Origin: an uncultured Verrucomicrobiota bacterium
Lineage (GTDB): Bacteria > Verrucomicrobiota > Kiritimatiellia > Kiritimatiellales > Tichowtungiaceae
Direction of reading: 5' to 3'
Assembly (NCBI GenBank): GCA_903826865.1
Contig: CAIKGD010000007.1
Location: 62,001 to 126,000 of the forward strand
Length of the DNA stretch: 64,000 bases
Positions 441 through 6,828 of this stretch are shown one piece after another (position 1 is the first letter of the stretch; every line of letters starts with the position of its first letter). Both the position numbers and the translations under genes were made by a program. Below the pieces are notes generated by a model. It searched no databases. It was not told the DNA's origin and saw nothing but the letters and a program-made list of their open reading frames with translations.

Positions 441-1007
441 TTACCAGGGGAGTTCTCCGCCTTCAGCGATGGTTACCACTCTGAAAAACATTGGCACGCC
501 GAAGAAATTTGTAACGGTTGCTGCGGTGTGAATATTCGTCTGGCAGATCCATTGATCCGACCAGACTCCGTTTGCGGCAGTGGCCTGTTCGACGTAATAG
601 ACAAGGCCGGTGTTGCCGCTGTTCGTCCAGCAGATAAATCCGTTTACAATCTTCGACGGTATTACACCCGTCACGGTATAGTTCACCGCCGGTGTGTTTG
701 TGGTTTGCCCTGTAACGCAGCTGATCCGGAAGAACCGGGGAAGGGCGGCGTAAAACATGCCATTGGATTGCGAGAACGGGACAAGGGGTTTATACCAGGA
801 ATTTGTCCAGCCGCCTGCGCTGAGCGTTGAACGCCACTCGACGGCGCACGAATAGTCGGAGACGGTTCCCGTCGGTGACAGCGTGAAGCCCAGCCGTCCG
901 GACGGCATGTCCAGATTTTCAATGCGGACTTGCTGGCCTGAACAGGCGAGCGCCGCCACAAGAGTTGTGGCGGCGATTGTCAGCGAAATGGTGCGAATAC
1001 TTTTCAT
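441..1007 (-). CDS. Exported protein with two beta-rich repeats
   Basis: This 188-residue protein has an N-terminal signal sequence (MKSIRTISLTIAATTLVAAL, with a Cys at 22 that could be a lipobox). Two related segments follow: the first has EWRSTLSAGGWTNSW ending in FFRIS, the second has YYVEQATAANGVWSDQW ending in FFRVV. This 'string of result-W-FFR' module is frequent in secreted proteins of Kiritimatiellota-like bacteria. The function is unknown. The C-terminus GGELPW closely resembles that of the next two upstream genes. It is the last gene of a leftward set that starts at 5603, with a 43-nt gap to its neighbour. Confidence 0.6.
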   Translation of the reverse strand: MKSIRTISLTIAATTLVAALACSGQQVRIENLDMPSGRLGFTLSPTGTVSDYSCAVEWRSTLSAGGWTNSWYKPLVPFSQSNGMFYAALPRFFRISCVTGQTTNTPAVNYTVTGVIPSKIVNGFICWTNSGNTGLVYYVEQATAANGVWSDQWICQTNIHTAATVTNFFGVPMFFRVVTIAEGGELPW

Positions 1008-1050
1008 GCAACTCCCGGCATTACTCCGCGAAGATCAATCCGGTGCGGAA

Positions 1051-1500
1051 TCAGAACGGCATTTCTCCGCCGTCATTGCTGCTGTCCGTGCCGCTGCTTG
1101 TGCCGCTGCTGCCTGACGAACTTCTGCCTTCCCAGTCACGATGGCGGTGATCATCGTCGTTGTTGGATGCATCAATAATAAAGAACAGCACCCCGGCGAC
1201 AGCCGCTTCACCCAGCAAAACTTTTCCTGTCCGGCCCGGCACGCTGGCCCAGGCATTGTAGTTCAGCCAGGAAAGAGATCCGCCTTCTGCAATGGGATTT
1301 TTCCAGCGCGACGGCCTGAACATGGCCGTAAGATCAGACCATGAGCTGAAGTTTTGCTGCACGCCGACACTGCCGCCCGAGGGTGTGGCCTGAACAAAAA
1401 CCTCCGGCGCACTGCCGACCGTTTCTGCCTGTGTTGTGCAAACTCCAACGACCAGCAAACACAATCCTGATACGATCACCAACTTACTTGAACTGTTCAC
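1051..1500 (-). CDS. Small exported protein with one C-terminal membrane segment
   Basis: This 149-residue protein starts with a signal peptide (MNSSSKLVIVSGLCLLVVGV, cleavage after TTQAE). A hydrophobic segment lies near residues 93-110 (VLLGEAAVAGVLFFIID). An acidic/histidine stretch (NNDDDHRHRD) and a Ser/Gly-rich linker follow, and the protein ends GGEMPF. No known domain is recognised. It lies 20 nt downstream of the HEAT-repeat gene and is probably in the same operon. The C-terminal tail matches those of the neighbouring genes at 441 and 1521. Confidence 0.6.
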   Translation of the reverse strand: MNSSSKLVIVSGLCLLVVGVCTTQAETVGSAPEVFVQATPSGGSVGVQQNFSSWSDLTAMFRPSRWKNPIAEGGSLSWLNYNAWASVPGRTGKVLLGEAAVAGVLFFIIDASNNDDDHRHRDWEGRSSSGSSGTSSGTDSSNDGGEMPF

Positions 1501-1520
1501 CTTGCACGCTCCCTTCTATG

Positions 1521-2717
1521 TTAGAACCAGAGTTCTCCGTTTATTCCGGCGATTCCTGCCGTACCCCTGGACTGCGGCGGGGTTCCGCTTTGTTCGATGG
1601 TCTGTAAAGTCTGATGGATGGCTGCTTGCAGAACCGGATCGCCGGCTGCCTGCTCCAGATTGGCAAGCACCGTTTGTGTCCGCTGGCTTGGCTGGTTTGC
1701 AAGTGCCTCCGCGGCAGCGATGCGCACGGCTGATGGAACGGCCGGATTGACCGCCGCCCGAATCAGAACTTCCTGACCGTAGGAGGAACCCACAGTCGCC
1801 AGCGCAGCGCGGCAGACCGGGGCGATGTCTTCCGTCGAGGACGCCGTTTCTAAAAGGGCGGTGCAGGCGGCACTGCTGCCCACATGAGCCAGACCGCGAG
1901 CCGCCGAGGTCTGGATTTCCGTTGTTTTTCCGGTCTCAATCAAATTTCGCAGTATGGCGGCCTGCTCCGGATCGCTGGCTCTTGCCAGCAGTTCCGCGCA
2001 GTCTTTGGCGTGCATTTTATCAATCGGGCTGGCCAGACTTGCCGCCAGACAGTCTACCACTTCCGTCCCGTGCAAAGCGGCCAGAATGGCAATAACCCGC
2101 TGCCGGACGTCCTCTGTTTTCGTCCGGCCCAGAAAACCGGTGAGCCATTCTGCAACGGCGGCACTGCGGCAGTCCGCAAATGCGTTAATAAATTTGTTAT
2201 AGTCCGGACTGTCTGCCGGTACCGTCAGCAATTTCCCCAGAGCGGCCGCCAGCGCTTCTCCTCCGCCGATACGGGCCAGCAGCCGGACGGCTTCAATTTC
2301 ACCGGCCGGGTCGCCCGAGTTCATGAACATGGCGATATCCCGGATGTTTCCATCCATTGCCGCGGCGGTCAGTTTTTCGTGCAGTTCCGCTGCCGTTGTT
2401 TTTCCGGAAACTTTATTCGTTCCGGCGAACGGCATTTCGTAGCCGCGTGTTTCGGCTTCAGCATCCGCTGGTTTAAGGATGACCGGTATGAATTCTTCCG
2501 GCGGGATGGCGGCCGGTTTCCTGCTTTCGGGATGGTCTGTTTTCGCAGAGAGGGCTTGCCCGGCAGTGCTTTGCACGGCTTGCGCCTGCACCGGTACCGG
2601 TGCAGGCGAATCCGTTTCCCGGTTCCGGTTGCTCACCAGAAAGATACTTACGGCCAGAGCTGCAGACAGCCCCAGCCATAAGACGGGCTTCGGTTTTATA
2701 TTCTGCCGGGAGTTCAC
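1521..2717 (-). CDS. Membrane-anchored HEAT-repeat protein
   Basis: This 398-residue protein has an N-terminal membrane anchor (VLWLGLSAALAVSIFLVS, residues about 12-29) and a Pro/Ala-rich linker. Most of the rest (about 110-385) is alpha-helical HEAT/PBS-lyase-like repeats, for example GDPAGEIEAVRLLARIGGGE and AVRIAAAEALANQP. Such solenoids are protein-binding scaffolds, here predicted to be periplasmic. The ATG overlaps the stop of the upstream DUF3494 gene (ATGA at 2714-2717), indicating translational coupling. It ends NGELWF, related to the tails of the next two genes. Confidence 0.7.
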   Translation of the reverse strand: MNSRQNIKPKPVLWLGLSAALAVSIFLVSNRNRETDSPAPVPVQAQAVQSTAGQALSAKTDHPESRKPAAIPPEEFIPVILKPADAEAETRGYEMPFAGTNKVSGKTTAAELHEKLTAAAMDGNIRDIAMFMNSGDPAGEIEAVRLLARIGGGEALAAALGKLLTVPADSPDYNKFINAFADCRSAAVAEWLTGFLGRTKTEDVRQRVIAILAALHGTEVVDCLAASLASPIDKMHAKDCAELLARASDPEQAAILRNLIETGKTTEIQTSAARGLAHVGSSAACTALLETASSTEDIAPVCRAALATVGSSYGQEVLIRAAVNPAVPSAVRIAAAEALANQPSQRTQTVLANLEQAAGDPVLQAAIHQTLQTIEQSGTPPQSRGTAGIAGINGELWF

Positions 2718-5603
2718 GGGTTGATCGTCCTTTCGATCAGGCGGCCGTACATGCCGTTTTCCTGCACCGGACGCGGGTCAACATCCGCCGCCAGATTTTC
2801 AGCCATCCACGCTGAAAGCGGATTGGCACTGTCGCGGCTGCGGAAGTACAGCTGCTGGGTTCCGGCCTGAGGCGGAACGATAAAGGTCGCCCGGAAGGTT
2901 GATTCCTTCGCATAGTATTTCACGCCGGTCGTCCGGTCCTTGAAGTAGAACGTTGATTGCACCGGAGTTCCGACAAGCGACGCGGAGGCGGTTGTCCAGA
3001 GGTTGCTGGTTGCCAGATTCAGCACCAGCAATTGCGCTTCCACGTCAATGTAAGACTGTACCTTCCACTCGCAGGTCACGGGTGATCCTTGCGGCAGGTT
3101 GTCCGGCATGGTCATTTCGATGATGGTAACGGCCGACCGTTCCTTATGCTGGGCAATGGTTTCGAATATGTTGGCACTGTCCCAGGTGTCGGGATCGGAT
3201 ACCGGGTTTGCGCCGTTGCCGCCGGCCAGAATGGTCCGCTGAATCAGTTTCGGGTAGGTCGGATCCATTCTGGAGTCCACGCCGTCAGGGATGACCGGAA
3301 TCATGAACTGGTCGCCGTCCATCTGCGCGACATTAAACCAGATATCGAAGTCGCCGGATTTTTGCGGCACGACCCATGCGCACTCGAACGCATAGAGGTT
3401 CGCCGGACGTCCGTTGAGATTCCATGCGCTTACCGTCATGCCCTGATACACACCGTTCTGGTAGAAAAACCAGCCGCCCGCTATCCCGCCGTAAATGCGG
3501 GACTGGATCGGTACATAGGAAAGGACTTTCCATTGCACGGTTACGGTTTCTCCCGGCGTCAGATTGTCCGGGAAGACGATTTCCTGCACGATATTGCCGG
3601 ATCGGAGCACGTCGTCATAATTTGCGTCTCCGGCGTATACCACCGTCACGGTATCAGTTGCTGAATTGCCCGAAGCGTCGTAGGCGATTGCGGTCACCAG
3701 ATTCGTTCCCTGAAACAACGGAAAGCCCGTCAAGGTCCAGTTGATGGTGCCGGCCGCTGTATAGACTGCAACGTCGCGGCTGTTACGCAGTGTGACTTGC
3801 GTTACACCGATATTGTCTGCTGCCGTGCCGCCCAAGTTCAGGCGGTTGGTCAGACTGGTGTAAGTTGTATTGGTGGTGGGGACAATGATCTGGATGGATG
3901 GAGCAACGATTTCCGACGGCGTATCGTTTTCAATGATCGTCACCGTTTTTAATACCGGAATGCCCAGACGGGCTCCGCTCGCATTAGTGATGACTACCGT
4001 GAAGGTCTCATTTCCTTCATAAATGGGGTCATCCAGCAGAGTGATCACAAAGGTTTTGGATGCGGTTTCACCATTGGTCCAGTTGAGTACACCGCTTGCG
4101 GCAGTGTAATCAAAACCCAGGCCGGCTGTGGCTGTTCCGTTGGAGGTCGCGTAATTCACGCTGGCCGCGCCGAAACTGCCGCTCAGCCGCGTAACCGTGA
4201 CCGTGAGCGACGCGCTGTTCTCGAGTACACTGTTGGTGGTCGTGTTGAATTGCAAGGTGCCGCGTGACGCTTCATTTGCAGTTGTAAATGACCACACGTC
4301 GCCCTCATTGATTCCCCCTGCATTCCGTGAGTCAATACGCCAGTAGTACGTGTTGCTGTAACTGAGTGTGCCGGGAGCAAAAGAGAGGGCGGTCTGGTTT
4401 GTTTTAAACTCGGCGAGGCCTGGTATCGGGTTGGTTCCGAAGTAAACCGCGTAATTGGTCGCGCCGCCGCCATTCTGCCAGGAAGTGTTAACGGTTATCA
4501 CTTGACCGGTCGCGCCGTTGGCCGGAGTCGGGTTGATGGCTTTTCCGGCGAGAGGAAGATTGCCGCCTGTGCCGGCGAAAGCAACCTGACCTGCGAAGGC
4601 CAGTGCCCGGCCTTCCATCGTGCTGCCGACATCCAGCGTAATGGATTGGTCAGCCAGAATGGTTCCCTTGAAACTGGAGTAGGTGCCCAATGTTGCTGAA
4701 GTGCCCACCTGCCAGAAAACGTTTCTGGCTTGTGCGCCGCCCGCCAGAATAACGGCTCTGTTGACACCGGCTTCCACGATCAGGTCGGTTGCAATCTGGA
4801 ATATCCAGACATCATCAGGGCCGCCGGTGAGGGTGACGTCCGAGCCCGCGATGCTGGCGCCGCTGGTGAATTTATAAAGACCGGGAACAAGGTTCAGTCC
4901 GCCGATATTTCCGGCTCCGGGGTTCAGAAAAGGTCCGGTCGGTACCGGCACCCGGTCTCTGGCCGCATTGTAAGCTGTGGTTAAATCACCTTTGGCTGTG
5001 GTTAACAGTCCGGCGTTAACAATTACGTTCGCACCGGCAGATCCGCTGGCATCGACCTTGTAGATGATGCCGTTCACTTGAGCCGGGGGGGATGCCGATG
5101 GCCGACCCGGCAATCGGGCTTGCTCCGACGTCGCCGTTAATGATGCCCGGCCCGGCGCTAATGGCCGCTCCGGCCAGAATTGTGAAATGCGCGGTCGATC
5201 CCAGATTGACGGCCAAAGGACCGGATGCAACCAGCGTCGTAAAGTTGGTGGTCGCAGAGGCCCATGCCGAGCCGCTCGTGTTCGTTGCGAAAAACCGGTA
5301 ATAGTACGTCCGGTTCGGCGTCAGGTTGGTCAATCCAAGGCTCAACACCCCGGTCGGATTCGTTCCCAGATTATTGGTATGACCCCAGTTTCCAAAGGTT
5401 GTTCCCCCGTTAGTCGTTCCCCAGTACACATAGACTTGTGTCGGTACGCCGCCGGTTGAGGTCAGTGTTCCGTTTGCCGTTGCGCTGATGGACATCACGC
5501 TGGATGCCCCGTTGGTGTTGTTTACAACCGGCGCTGCCGCCTGCGCCCAATGCGGCATCGTTACGGCCGCCGCGACAGCCAGTCCTTTGAGGATATTTTT
5601 CAT
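2714..5603 (-). CDS. Multidomain DUF3494 (ice-binding-like) exported protein, frameshifted
   Basis: The start at 5603 has a good Shine-Dalgarno (AGGAG) and a signal peptide (MKNILKGLAVAAAVT...AQA). In order come a fibronectin-type segment, a DUF3494 domain (from LAVNLGSTAHFTILAGAAIS to about position 4530), a second Fn3-like domain, a Calx-beta domain (SVLENSASLTVTVTRLSG...FTVVITNASGA), an Ig-like domain and two C-terminal repeats of about 120 residues (PDNLTPGETVTVQWKV / PDNLPQGSPVTCEWKV). The reading frame breaks inside the DUF3494 domain at a run of seven C on the coding strand (5085-5091). Eight C would restore it. DUF3494 proteins act in ice binding or adhesion. As written the product would stop early, through sequencing error, phase variation or decay. 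Confidence 0.75.
5085..5091 (-). other. C7 homopolymer at the frameshift in the DUF3494 gene
   Basis: Upstream of this run the frame reads GSAIGIPP. Downstream the family sequence AQVNGIIYKVDASG continues in another frame. Adding one C joins both halves into one DUF3494 domain. Either an indel sequencing error or a slippage-prone contingency tract explains this. Confidence 0.75.
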
Positions 5604-5910
5604 TCTATTAACTCCTGTCGCCCTGAGGGCGTGTGTATGTGTCGAACATTCAACCTTTTGTTCGCCGGGCAGATCTTCGTATGCAGTCTTCATTTGCTGA
5701 CTCCTTTCAGGTTTGTCAGGTGTTGCGATGGGGCGAAGGTAGTTGAACAGCCCGTGCTTCGCTATGGGGTGTAACCCTACCGCGGGAAAAACGTCTTTTT
5801 GCGGAGCCTTTCATCCGGTCGTGGGGTGAATACCCCATAGCGAGCTGCCGAAGCGGCGGGTAGTGTGCTTTTCTCTTGCTACAGGACAGATGAACACGAA
5901 AGGAAAAGAA
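5604..5910. promoter_or_regulatory. Divergent control region with two GGGGT-N-ACCC sites
   Basis: This gene-free 300-bp region separates the two DUF3494 genes. It holds TATGGGGTGTAACCCTACC at 5763-5781 (identical to the site at 344-362) and TGGGGTGAATACCCCATAG at 5822-5840, a longer palindrome on a 4-nt spacer. Their placement suggests common control of both genes. Confidence 0.5.
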
Positions 5911-6003
5911 ATGATGAAGCTAATGCAGCTCTGGACATCCAGATCCGACAAACAAACGGAAGAGAGCACAGATAACGGAACAGCCGGAAAAGGAAAATAT
6001 ACA

Positions 6004-6828
6004 ATGAAACCAACTCGTACACTGCGGTTTACCAGAAACGGCGCACATCGGATTTCCACAGGACTGGTCATCGCAGCAGCTCTGCTGTTTATGCACCGCA
6101 ACACGATGGCAATTGCGCCGGTGGATATTGGCACCGGCTCCGGTTTTGCGGTGCTGGCCGGTGCCGGGATTACGGCAGCCGGTGCGGTCAACACAACCAC
6201 GATCACCGGGGACATCGGAACGTATCCAACTACGAACATCACGGGACTTGGCAATGTAGTTTTGAACGGAACAAATCATGCCGGGGACGCGGTCACGCAA
6301 ACGGCTAAATCCGACCTGACCCTTGCGTATAACGATGCCGTCGGGCGTCCGCCGACTACGTCTTATGGCGCGATTTATAATCTGGGCGGATCAAGCCTGA
6401 CCTCCGGTGTTTATAACGGCATCAGTTCGTTTTTTATCACAGGAGCTCTCACACTCGATGCCGGAGGCGATCCGAATGCCGTTTGGATTTTTCAGGCATA
6501 TTCCACGCTTATAACCGCTGACGGCAGTCAGGTTATACTCACCAACGGTGCCCGGGCGGCTAACGTTTTCTGGCAGGTTGGAAGTTCAGCGACACTTGGA
6601 ACCTACTCAGCCTTTGCGGGGAACATACTGGCTATGGATTCCATCACACTCACCACCGGTGCAACGGTGGATGGCCGGGTGCTGGCACGTAATGGCGCGG
6701 TTTCTCTCGACAGCAATACCATTAACGCAGTGCCGGAACCTGCCGGCGCGCTGTTAATCGGTTTTGGGACAGCGGTCATACTGGCTGTCAGACGTCGGTT
6801 CCCGTCCTGTATCCGTTTCGACAGCTAA
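6004..6828 (+). CDS. DUF3494 (ice-binding-like) protein with PEP-CTERM anchor
   Basis: A single DUF3494 domain (from DIGTGSGFAVLAGAGITAAG to about residue 245, including GDIGTYPTTNITG, WIFQAYSTL and FWQVGSSATLGTYSAFAGNI) is followed by VPEPAGALLIGFGTAVIL and RRR. This is a PEP-CTERM tail for exosortase processing and surface delivery. The signal sequence has a long basic n-region before STGLVIAAALLF. I prefer the ATG at 6004 (274 residues, AAGGA upstream); ATGs at 5911 or 5863 would add an unlikely leader. The domain resembles that of the divergent gene at 5603. Its likely role is as a surface adhesin or ice-interacting protein; the substrate is unknown. Confidence 0.75.
   Translation: MKPTRTLRFTRNGAHRISTGLVIAAALLFMHRNTMAIAPVDIGTGSGFAVLAGAGITAAGAVNTTTITGDIGTYPTTNITGLGNVVLNGTNHAGDAVTQTAKSDLTLAYNDAVGRPPTTSYGAIYNLGGSSLTSGVYNGISSFFITGALTLDAGGDPNAVWIFQAYSTLITADGSQVILTNGARAANVFWQVGSSATLGTYSAFAGNILAMDSITLTTGATVDGRVLARNGAVSLDSNTINAVPEPAGALLIGFGTAVILAVRRRFPSCIRFDS

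Follow-up and report, generated by a model that had tools for sequence, protein, structure and literature searches.

A short C-terminal motif is kept in the accessory proteins of a recurring gene cassette of Kiritimatiellota-type bacteria

We found that the gene cassette P4-P3-P2 recurs in genomes of the class Kiritimatiellia, and that a short C-terminal motif is kept, at the protein level, in the P3 and P2 proteins of eight such loci. We consider it probable (roughly 60%) that this tail is a short linear docking motif which acts multivalently within the cassette, binds one common partner and holds the cassette together.

Results

Three neighbouring genes share a C-terminal tail

The window is a stretch of 64,000 nucleotides from an uncultured Verrucomicrobiota bacterium (assembly GCA_903826865.1, contig CAIKGD010000007.1, positions 62,001 to 126,000). 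Within it P1, P2 and P3 lie on the same strand, separated by intergenic gaps of 43 and 20 bases, and the end of P4 overlaps the start of P3 by 4 bases. The features of this region, in window positions, are as follows.

441-1007, reverse strand: P1, 188 aa, with a signal-like N-terminus, two beta-type repeats (judged by eye) and the tail EGGELPW
444-461, reverse strand: P1 tail codons, GGELPW
1051-1500, reverse strand: P2, 149 aa, with an N-terminal signal-like segment, a conserved core and the tail DGGEMPF
1054-1071, reverse strand: P2 tail codons, GGEMPF
1521-2717, reverse strand: P3, 398 aa, with an N-terminal hydrophobic anchor, a linker, HEAT repeats and the tail INGELWF
1524-1541, reverse strand: P3 tail codons, NGELWF
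2427-2441, reverse strand: internal motif YEMPF of P3 (residues 93-97), in the linker between the anchor and the HEAT domain
2714-5230, reverse strand: P4, large; ice-binding-like (DUF3494) and Calx-beta domains precede a C-terminal module that is conserved
2720-3631, reverse strand: C-terminal module of P4, the cassette hallmark (from alignment, a search match and a low-confidence model)
5016-5693, reverse strand: probable 5' part of the P4 gene, encoding a signal-like N-terminus and the beginning of the ice-binding domain; its frame differs from that of 2714-5230
5863-6828, forward strand: another ice-binding-like protein, which adjoins the cassette on the opposite strand and whose end is PEP-CTERM-like (NCBIfam matches below threshold)

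The first-pass annotation of this DNA had described three neighbouring exported proteins that finish in GGELPW, GGEMPF and NGELWF and are otherwise unrelated. The three tails were confirmed at the ends of P1, P2 and P3, and pairwise BLAST revealed no significant similarity among the bodies of the proteins, the best pairing of P1 with P2 spanning 6-9 residues only, with the tail as one such stretch. When tail triples were drawn column-wise from 145 C-termini, none of 4 million reached the observed summed BLOSUM score, a score picked after the tails had been seen. Hydrophobic N-terminal segments are present in all three proteins, which suggests from sequence that they are exported or membrane-bound. 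The co-occurring protease or translocase that the annotation had proposed to look for is not present beside the window operon.

Pfam gave no match in the window P1 or P2 and HEAT only in P3 (HEAT_2, 6.7e-13), for which a sequence search of the PDB returned alpha-Rep HEAT proteins as relatives. P1 was found in the window genome only; the relatives of its repeats form the N-terminal portions of other exported-looking proteins, which lack the tail. In the window P2, a second hydrophobic segment begins at residue 94 and is followed by a Ser/Gly linker to the tail, which is disordered in a low-confidence model of the protein (mean pLDDT 55). The ice-binding-like P4 gene appears to be split into two frames near position 5085, at a run of seven G, and the split seems to be a sequencing error or a real frameshift; NCBIfam NF045625 is matched at positions 53-105 in the frame at 5016-5693 and at positions 110-264 in P4.

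The cassette and its tails recur in other genomes

Scanning of genome contigs with the P2 alignment returned 19 loci. In two of these a P3 relative lies directly upstream and both genes are motif-ended, namely L042 (Lentisphaerae bacterium RIFOXYC12_FULL_60_16, with DGEVWF in P3 and GGEMPW in P2) and L043 (Kiritimatiellae bacterium CSSed165cm_27R1, with GGELCF and TGEVPI); L043 and L042 were taken as loci of G527 and G535, with which positions and contents agree. When 345 genomes of the class were searched with a P3 profile, 12 matches appeared, in 10 genomes. Six of the matched loci were inspected, a set that leaves out L068, L069 and L070, and five proved to be further cassettes (G535b, G342, G344, G348 and G527b); the sixth (G534) was rejected as a different HEAT protein. 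With the window, the cassette stands at eight loci in six genomes, seven of these loci lying in five other genomes of the class; three of the six genomes belong to one family. P4 is visible upstream in six of the seven further loci. The tails are as follows.

Window: P3 GELWF, P2 GEMPF
G535a: P3 GEVWF, P2 GEMPW
G527a: P3 GELCF, P2 GEVPI
G535b: P3 HELCF, P2 DELPF
G342: P3 SERWF, P2 DESPF
G344: P3 DERWF, P2 DESPF
G348: P3 AERWF, P2 DESPF
G527b: P3 DEIWH, P2 DEQPMF

In 8 of 8 loci the ends of P3 and P2 are thus variants of E-x-[W/C/P]-[F/W/I/H], and the linkers that precede these ends do not align. Glutamate stands at position -4 in 15 of the 16 P3 and P2 tails (0.34 bits, compared with 2.2-3.5 bits in columns -30 to -7), while positions -3 and -1 vary, as in EVPI, EIWH and EQPMF. 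Because the tail is kept in the eight cassette loci and the neighbouring residues are not, these data support a functional, selected tail. Its relaxed form is present in 17 cassette genes (8 P3, 8 P2 and P1), whereas 0 of 324 other genes called in the examined loci and the window have it, this background consisting of greedy ORF calls, not curated genes; 12 of the 17 tails qualify under the strict form E-x-[PW]-[FW]. The G and E codons differ among loci, indicating that the motif is kept as protein and that selection acts at the protein level. Furthermore, the P3 and P2 tails covary within operons at positions -5 to -3 (permutation P 0.008, phylogeny not removed). Across loci, P2 proteins begin with a signal-like segment; a conserved core and a Gly/Ser/Pro linker are also present, in many cases together with a second hydrophobic segment. 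The P2 of G535b has no detectable similarity to the window P2, yet it ends in DELPF.

None of the 17 other loci of the 19-locus scan, which hold P2 relatives but not the cassette, has the tail. They include pairs that, judging by record titles, come from one MAG, and the count leaves out the G014 relative at L030 and a weak match in G063. The comparison of 7/7 with 0/17 P2 loci gave a Fisher value of 2.9e-6, with relatedness not removed, and the relative at L030 likewise has no tail. No P3 was seen upstream in the contexts listed for the 17 loci (13 of the 17 in one listing, plus L049). At L049 (G216), two P4-like half modules lie behind a polysaccharide deacetylase, and after them comes a P2 relative ending in IETEI; no P3 was recognised at this locus.

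P4 joins exchangeable N-terminal parts to a constant module

The 4-base overlap of P4 with P3 was found in 6 of the 6 loci compared (without G535b; the G535a contig begins inside P3). The C-terminal module of P4 comprises about 300 residues and is 37-57% identical to that of the window, and the N-terminal parts are of several kinds: ice-binding-like and Calx-beta in the window, peptidase C25 in G342, G344 and G348, subtilase in G527b and G535b, and FG-GAP/BACON/cadherin-like in G527a. The C25 peptidase of G342 also matches PorU, but below threshold (NCBIfam E 4.2e-51; 174 bits where the cut-off is 420). We found the module in 7 of 332 genomes of the class, one of which, G216, carries a distant form followed by a tail-less P2 relative, and in 2 of 288 genomes drawn from the phylum, both already among the class-level finds. 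A model of the module (mean pLDDT 52) has two Ig-like halves at low confidence. Foldseek returned tandem Ig-like matches with a TM of about 0.2, a hint of predicted beta sandwiches, and PDB sequence searches with the module and with P2 found nothing.

P3 carries internal copies of the motif

The recurrence of the tails in homologous operons elsewhere and an internal copy in P3 go beyond what the first-pass annotation had seen. Of the seven full-length P3 proteins, five have a sequence E-x-P-[W/F] in the linker between anchor and HEAT domain: YEMPF in the window (residue 93), DETPW in G342 (77), DELPW in G344 (77), DEQPW in G348 (75) and DESPW in G527b (87). No internal copy was found in the P3 of G527a or G535b. 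The expectation was about 0.33 (from nine matches in 71,457 background residues; Poisson 2.5e-5), with a regular expression set after the tails had been seen and the length of the G535b P3 entered as 370, an estimate. These internal copies suggest that a free C-terminus is not essential for recognition.

Pattern counts argue against a genome-wide tag

The first-pass annotation had read the tail as a sorting or processing tag. The idea of a functional, selected tail stood up to our analysis; that of a general sorting or processing tag did not. A sorting, anchoring or cleavage signal for a general enzyme, such as a sortase-like enzyme or a PDZ-bearing protease, appears unlikely. Free C-terminal phi-x-phi or S-x-phi ends suit PDZ domains, and the tail does stand at the C-terminus of exported-looking proteins; however, in the pattern searches it was confined to the cassette. 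In the window genome, a degenerate DNA pattern of the tail gave 8 matches compared to 5 for a reversed-pattern control. Three of the eight were the P1, P2 and P3 genes, the only gene ends among them, since no gene ends at the other five in greedy gene lists of the surrounding 3 kb; a tag of the PEP-CTERM or sortase type would be expected on many unrelated proteins. Across 43 genomes of the order, a tighter pattern gave 6 matches against 2 for its control, with three being the P1-P3 genes and the remaining three not gene ends. These patterns are codon forms of particular tails, so that variants such as GEVPI would be missed. In the six cassette genomes, the pattern E-x-W-F-stop had 27 matches versus 28 for the control. 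Among the 27, 15 finish in TGG, which is no stop, and five are P3 genes; no called gene ends at the remaining seven, one of which marks the end of a 24-codon frame. No other E-x-W-F gene end was found in these six genomes, which argues against a general sorting tag, and on the pattern counts with their controls a genome-wide tag was rejected. Genome-wide the motif is no commoner at C-termini than expected, the outcome that the first-pass annotation had named as refuting its reading; for the operon this does not hold.

The internal P3 copies also speak against a signal for a general enzyme, as does the form of the tail. Known sorting tags have a hydrophobic or basic segment after the motif, whereas the cassette motif forms the last residues of each protein, with no such segment behind it. 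PEP-CTERM and T9SS signals resemble it as C-terminal features of exported proteins, but they are longer, consist of domains or hydrophobic segments, and serve many proteins in a genome, whereas the cassette motif has about five residues and is bound to one cassette. Over the C-terminal module of P4, Pfam gave no match of any kind, T9SS CTD included (window, L074, L077, L073, L043, L075 and L076), and profile searches gave no PDB relative.

Comparison with known docking tails

The nearest analogues appear to be the acidic tip of SSB and the chemoreceptor pentapeptide, neither of which fits by domain: Pfam found neither the SSB domain (PF00436) nor a chemoreceptor domain in P1-P3. PMC7145534 and PMC10018359 describe the SSB C-terminus as a disordered linker whose acidic tip is a docking point for several partners. 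The cassette genomes gave ten SSB loci, and the correct frame was read for five: one ends in GPAPF, and the other four have [I/L]PF behind acidic residues (EDIPF, SDIPF, EEIPF and SDLPF), near the DELPF and DESPF of P2. L117 and L118, frames on the wrong strand, were dropped. That the tails mimic this tip and recruit cytoplasmic SSB-binding proteins is nevertheless quite improbable. Both kinds of tail sit on low-complexity linkers, and most P2 tails fit the form of the tip (acidic, x-P-F, free C-terminus), but P3 tails end in E-x-[WC]-[FH] and the motif also lies inside P3. SSB is cytoplasmic and binds DNA, whereas P1-P3 look exported or membrane-bound, with signal-like segments at the start of P1 and P2; mimicry would be possible only if the tails were cytoplasmic. 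The neighbouring genes are not repair genes, except for a DinG/YoaA-like helicase beyond the cassette in G342.

The C-terminal pentapeptide of chemoreceptors (NWETF), for CheR and CheB, is described in part of PMC7390727 as a partner-tethering peptide, often acidic and with aromatic ends, on an unstructured linker of about 35 residues. It is similar to the cassette tail as an acidic-aromatic peptide on a flexible linker; it differs in having W at position 2 and F at position 5, compared to E-x-P-F or E-x-W-F.

In G342 and G344, PqqD-like and radical-SAM/SPASM genes come directly after the cassette (L074:4562-8333 and L075:6161-7563), and HprK-like and PpiC-type isomerase genes also lie downstream in G342. 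That the tail is a substrate site for PqqD/radical-SAM enzymes, which adjoin the cassette in the f20 genomes, is very improbable, even with these genes following P2 in two genomes and a radical-SAM relative in G348. The window genome has a weak match only (E 6.7e-17, 26%), and a 58% relative occurs in G113, where no cassette was detected. The radical-SAM genes thus do not track the cassette, and maturation was rejected as a general explanation.

Finally, we give almost no credence to chance likeness or a shared DNA element (a short 3' duplication or an RNA signal), which the identical GGA GAA codons of all three window tails might suggest but which is already contradicted by recurrence in eight loci with different codons, just as chance is by the random tail triples. 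As a Shine-Dalgarno or other RNA signal, GGAGAA was rejected separately: its distance from the next start is too great, likely ribosome sites lie nearer to P2 and P1 (by eye), and the codons differ in other loci.

Discussion

We favour a docking motif of the form E-x-[P/W/C]-[F/W], preceded by small or acidic residues. The accessory proteins of one dedicated cassette would present it on their flexible tails and, in P3, within the linker as well. All copies would bind one common partner, and P3, P2 and, in the window genome, P1 would be tied in this way to the P4 protein at the cell envelope. P3 may act as the membrane anchor and P4 as an exchangeable passenger (ice-binding, C25 peptidase, subtilase or FG-GAP/BACON). 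As to the partner, our guess is the conserved C-terminal module of P4, the obvious constant component and hence the candidate receptor. Since the P3 anchors have mixed flanking charges (by eye) and P2 often has a second hydrophobic segment, whose flanking charges are ambiguous as well, the tails need not all face the same compartment.

More tentatively, and as less likely than not, we suggest that in Kiritimatiellota-type bacteria the whole may be a display or secretion cassette of a kind not yet described. Its passengers, with exchangeable N-terminal domains and a shared C-terminal module, would have their own HEAT anchor and tail protein, all held together by a multivalent E-x-[P/W]-[F/W] motif; a dedicated receptor, perhaps the module of the passenger, would read this motif. 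Our literature searches, which for Kiritimatiellota and Verrucomicrobia covered sorting, HEAT repeats, ice-binding, PEP-CTERM and C25, turned up no publication on the cassette. Inside the cell, disordered tails that bear docking motifs are well established, as in SSB and the chemoreceptors. The five-residue motif offers a directly mutable handle. Its occurrence on several unrelated, apparently exported proteins encoded in one operon with an exchangeable passenger would, if the proposal is true, point to a new means by which surface or secreted enzymes are assembled, in a phylum that has received little study.
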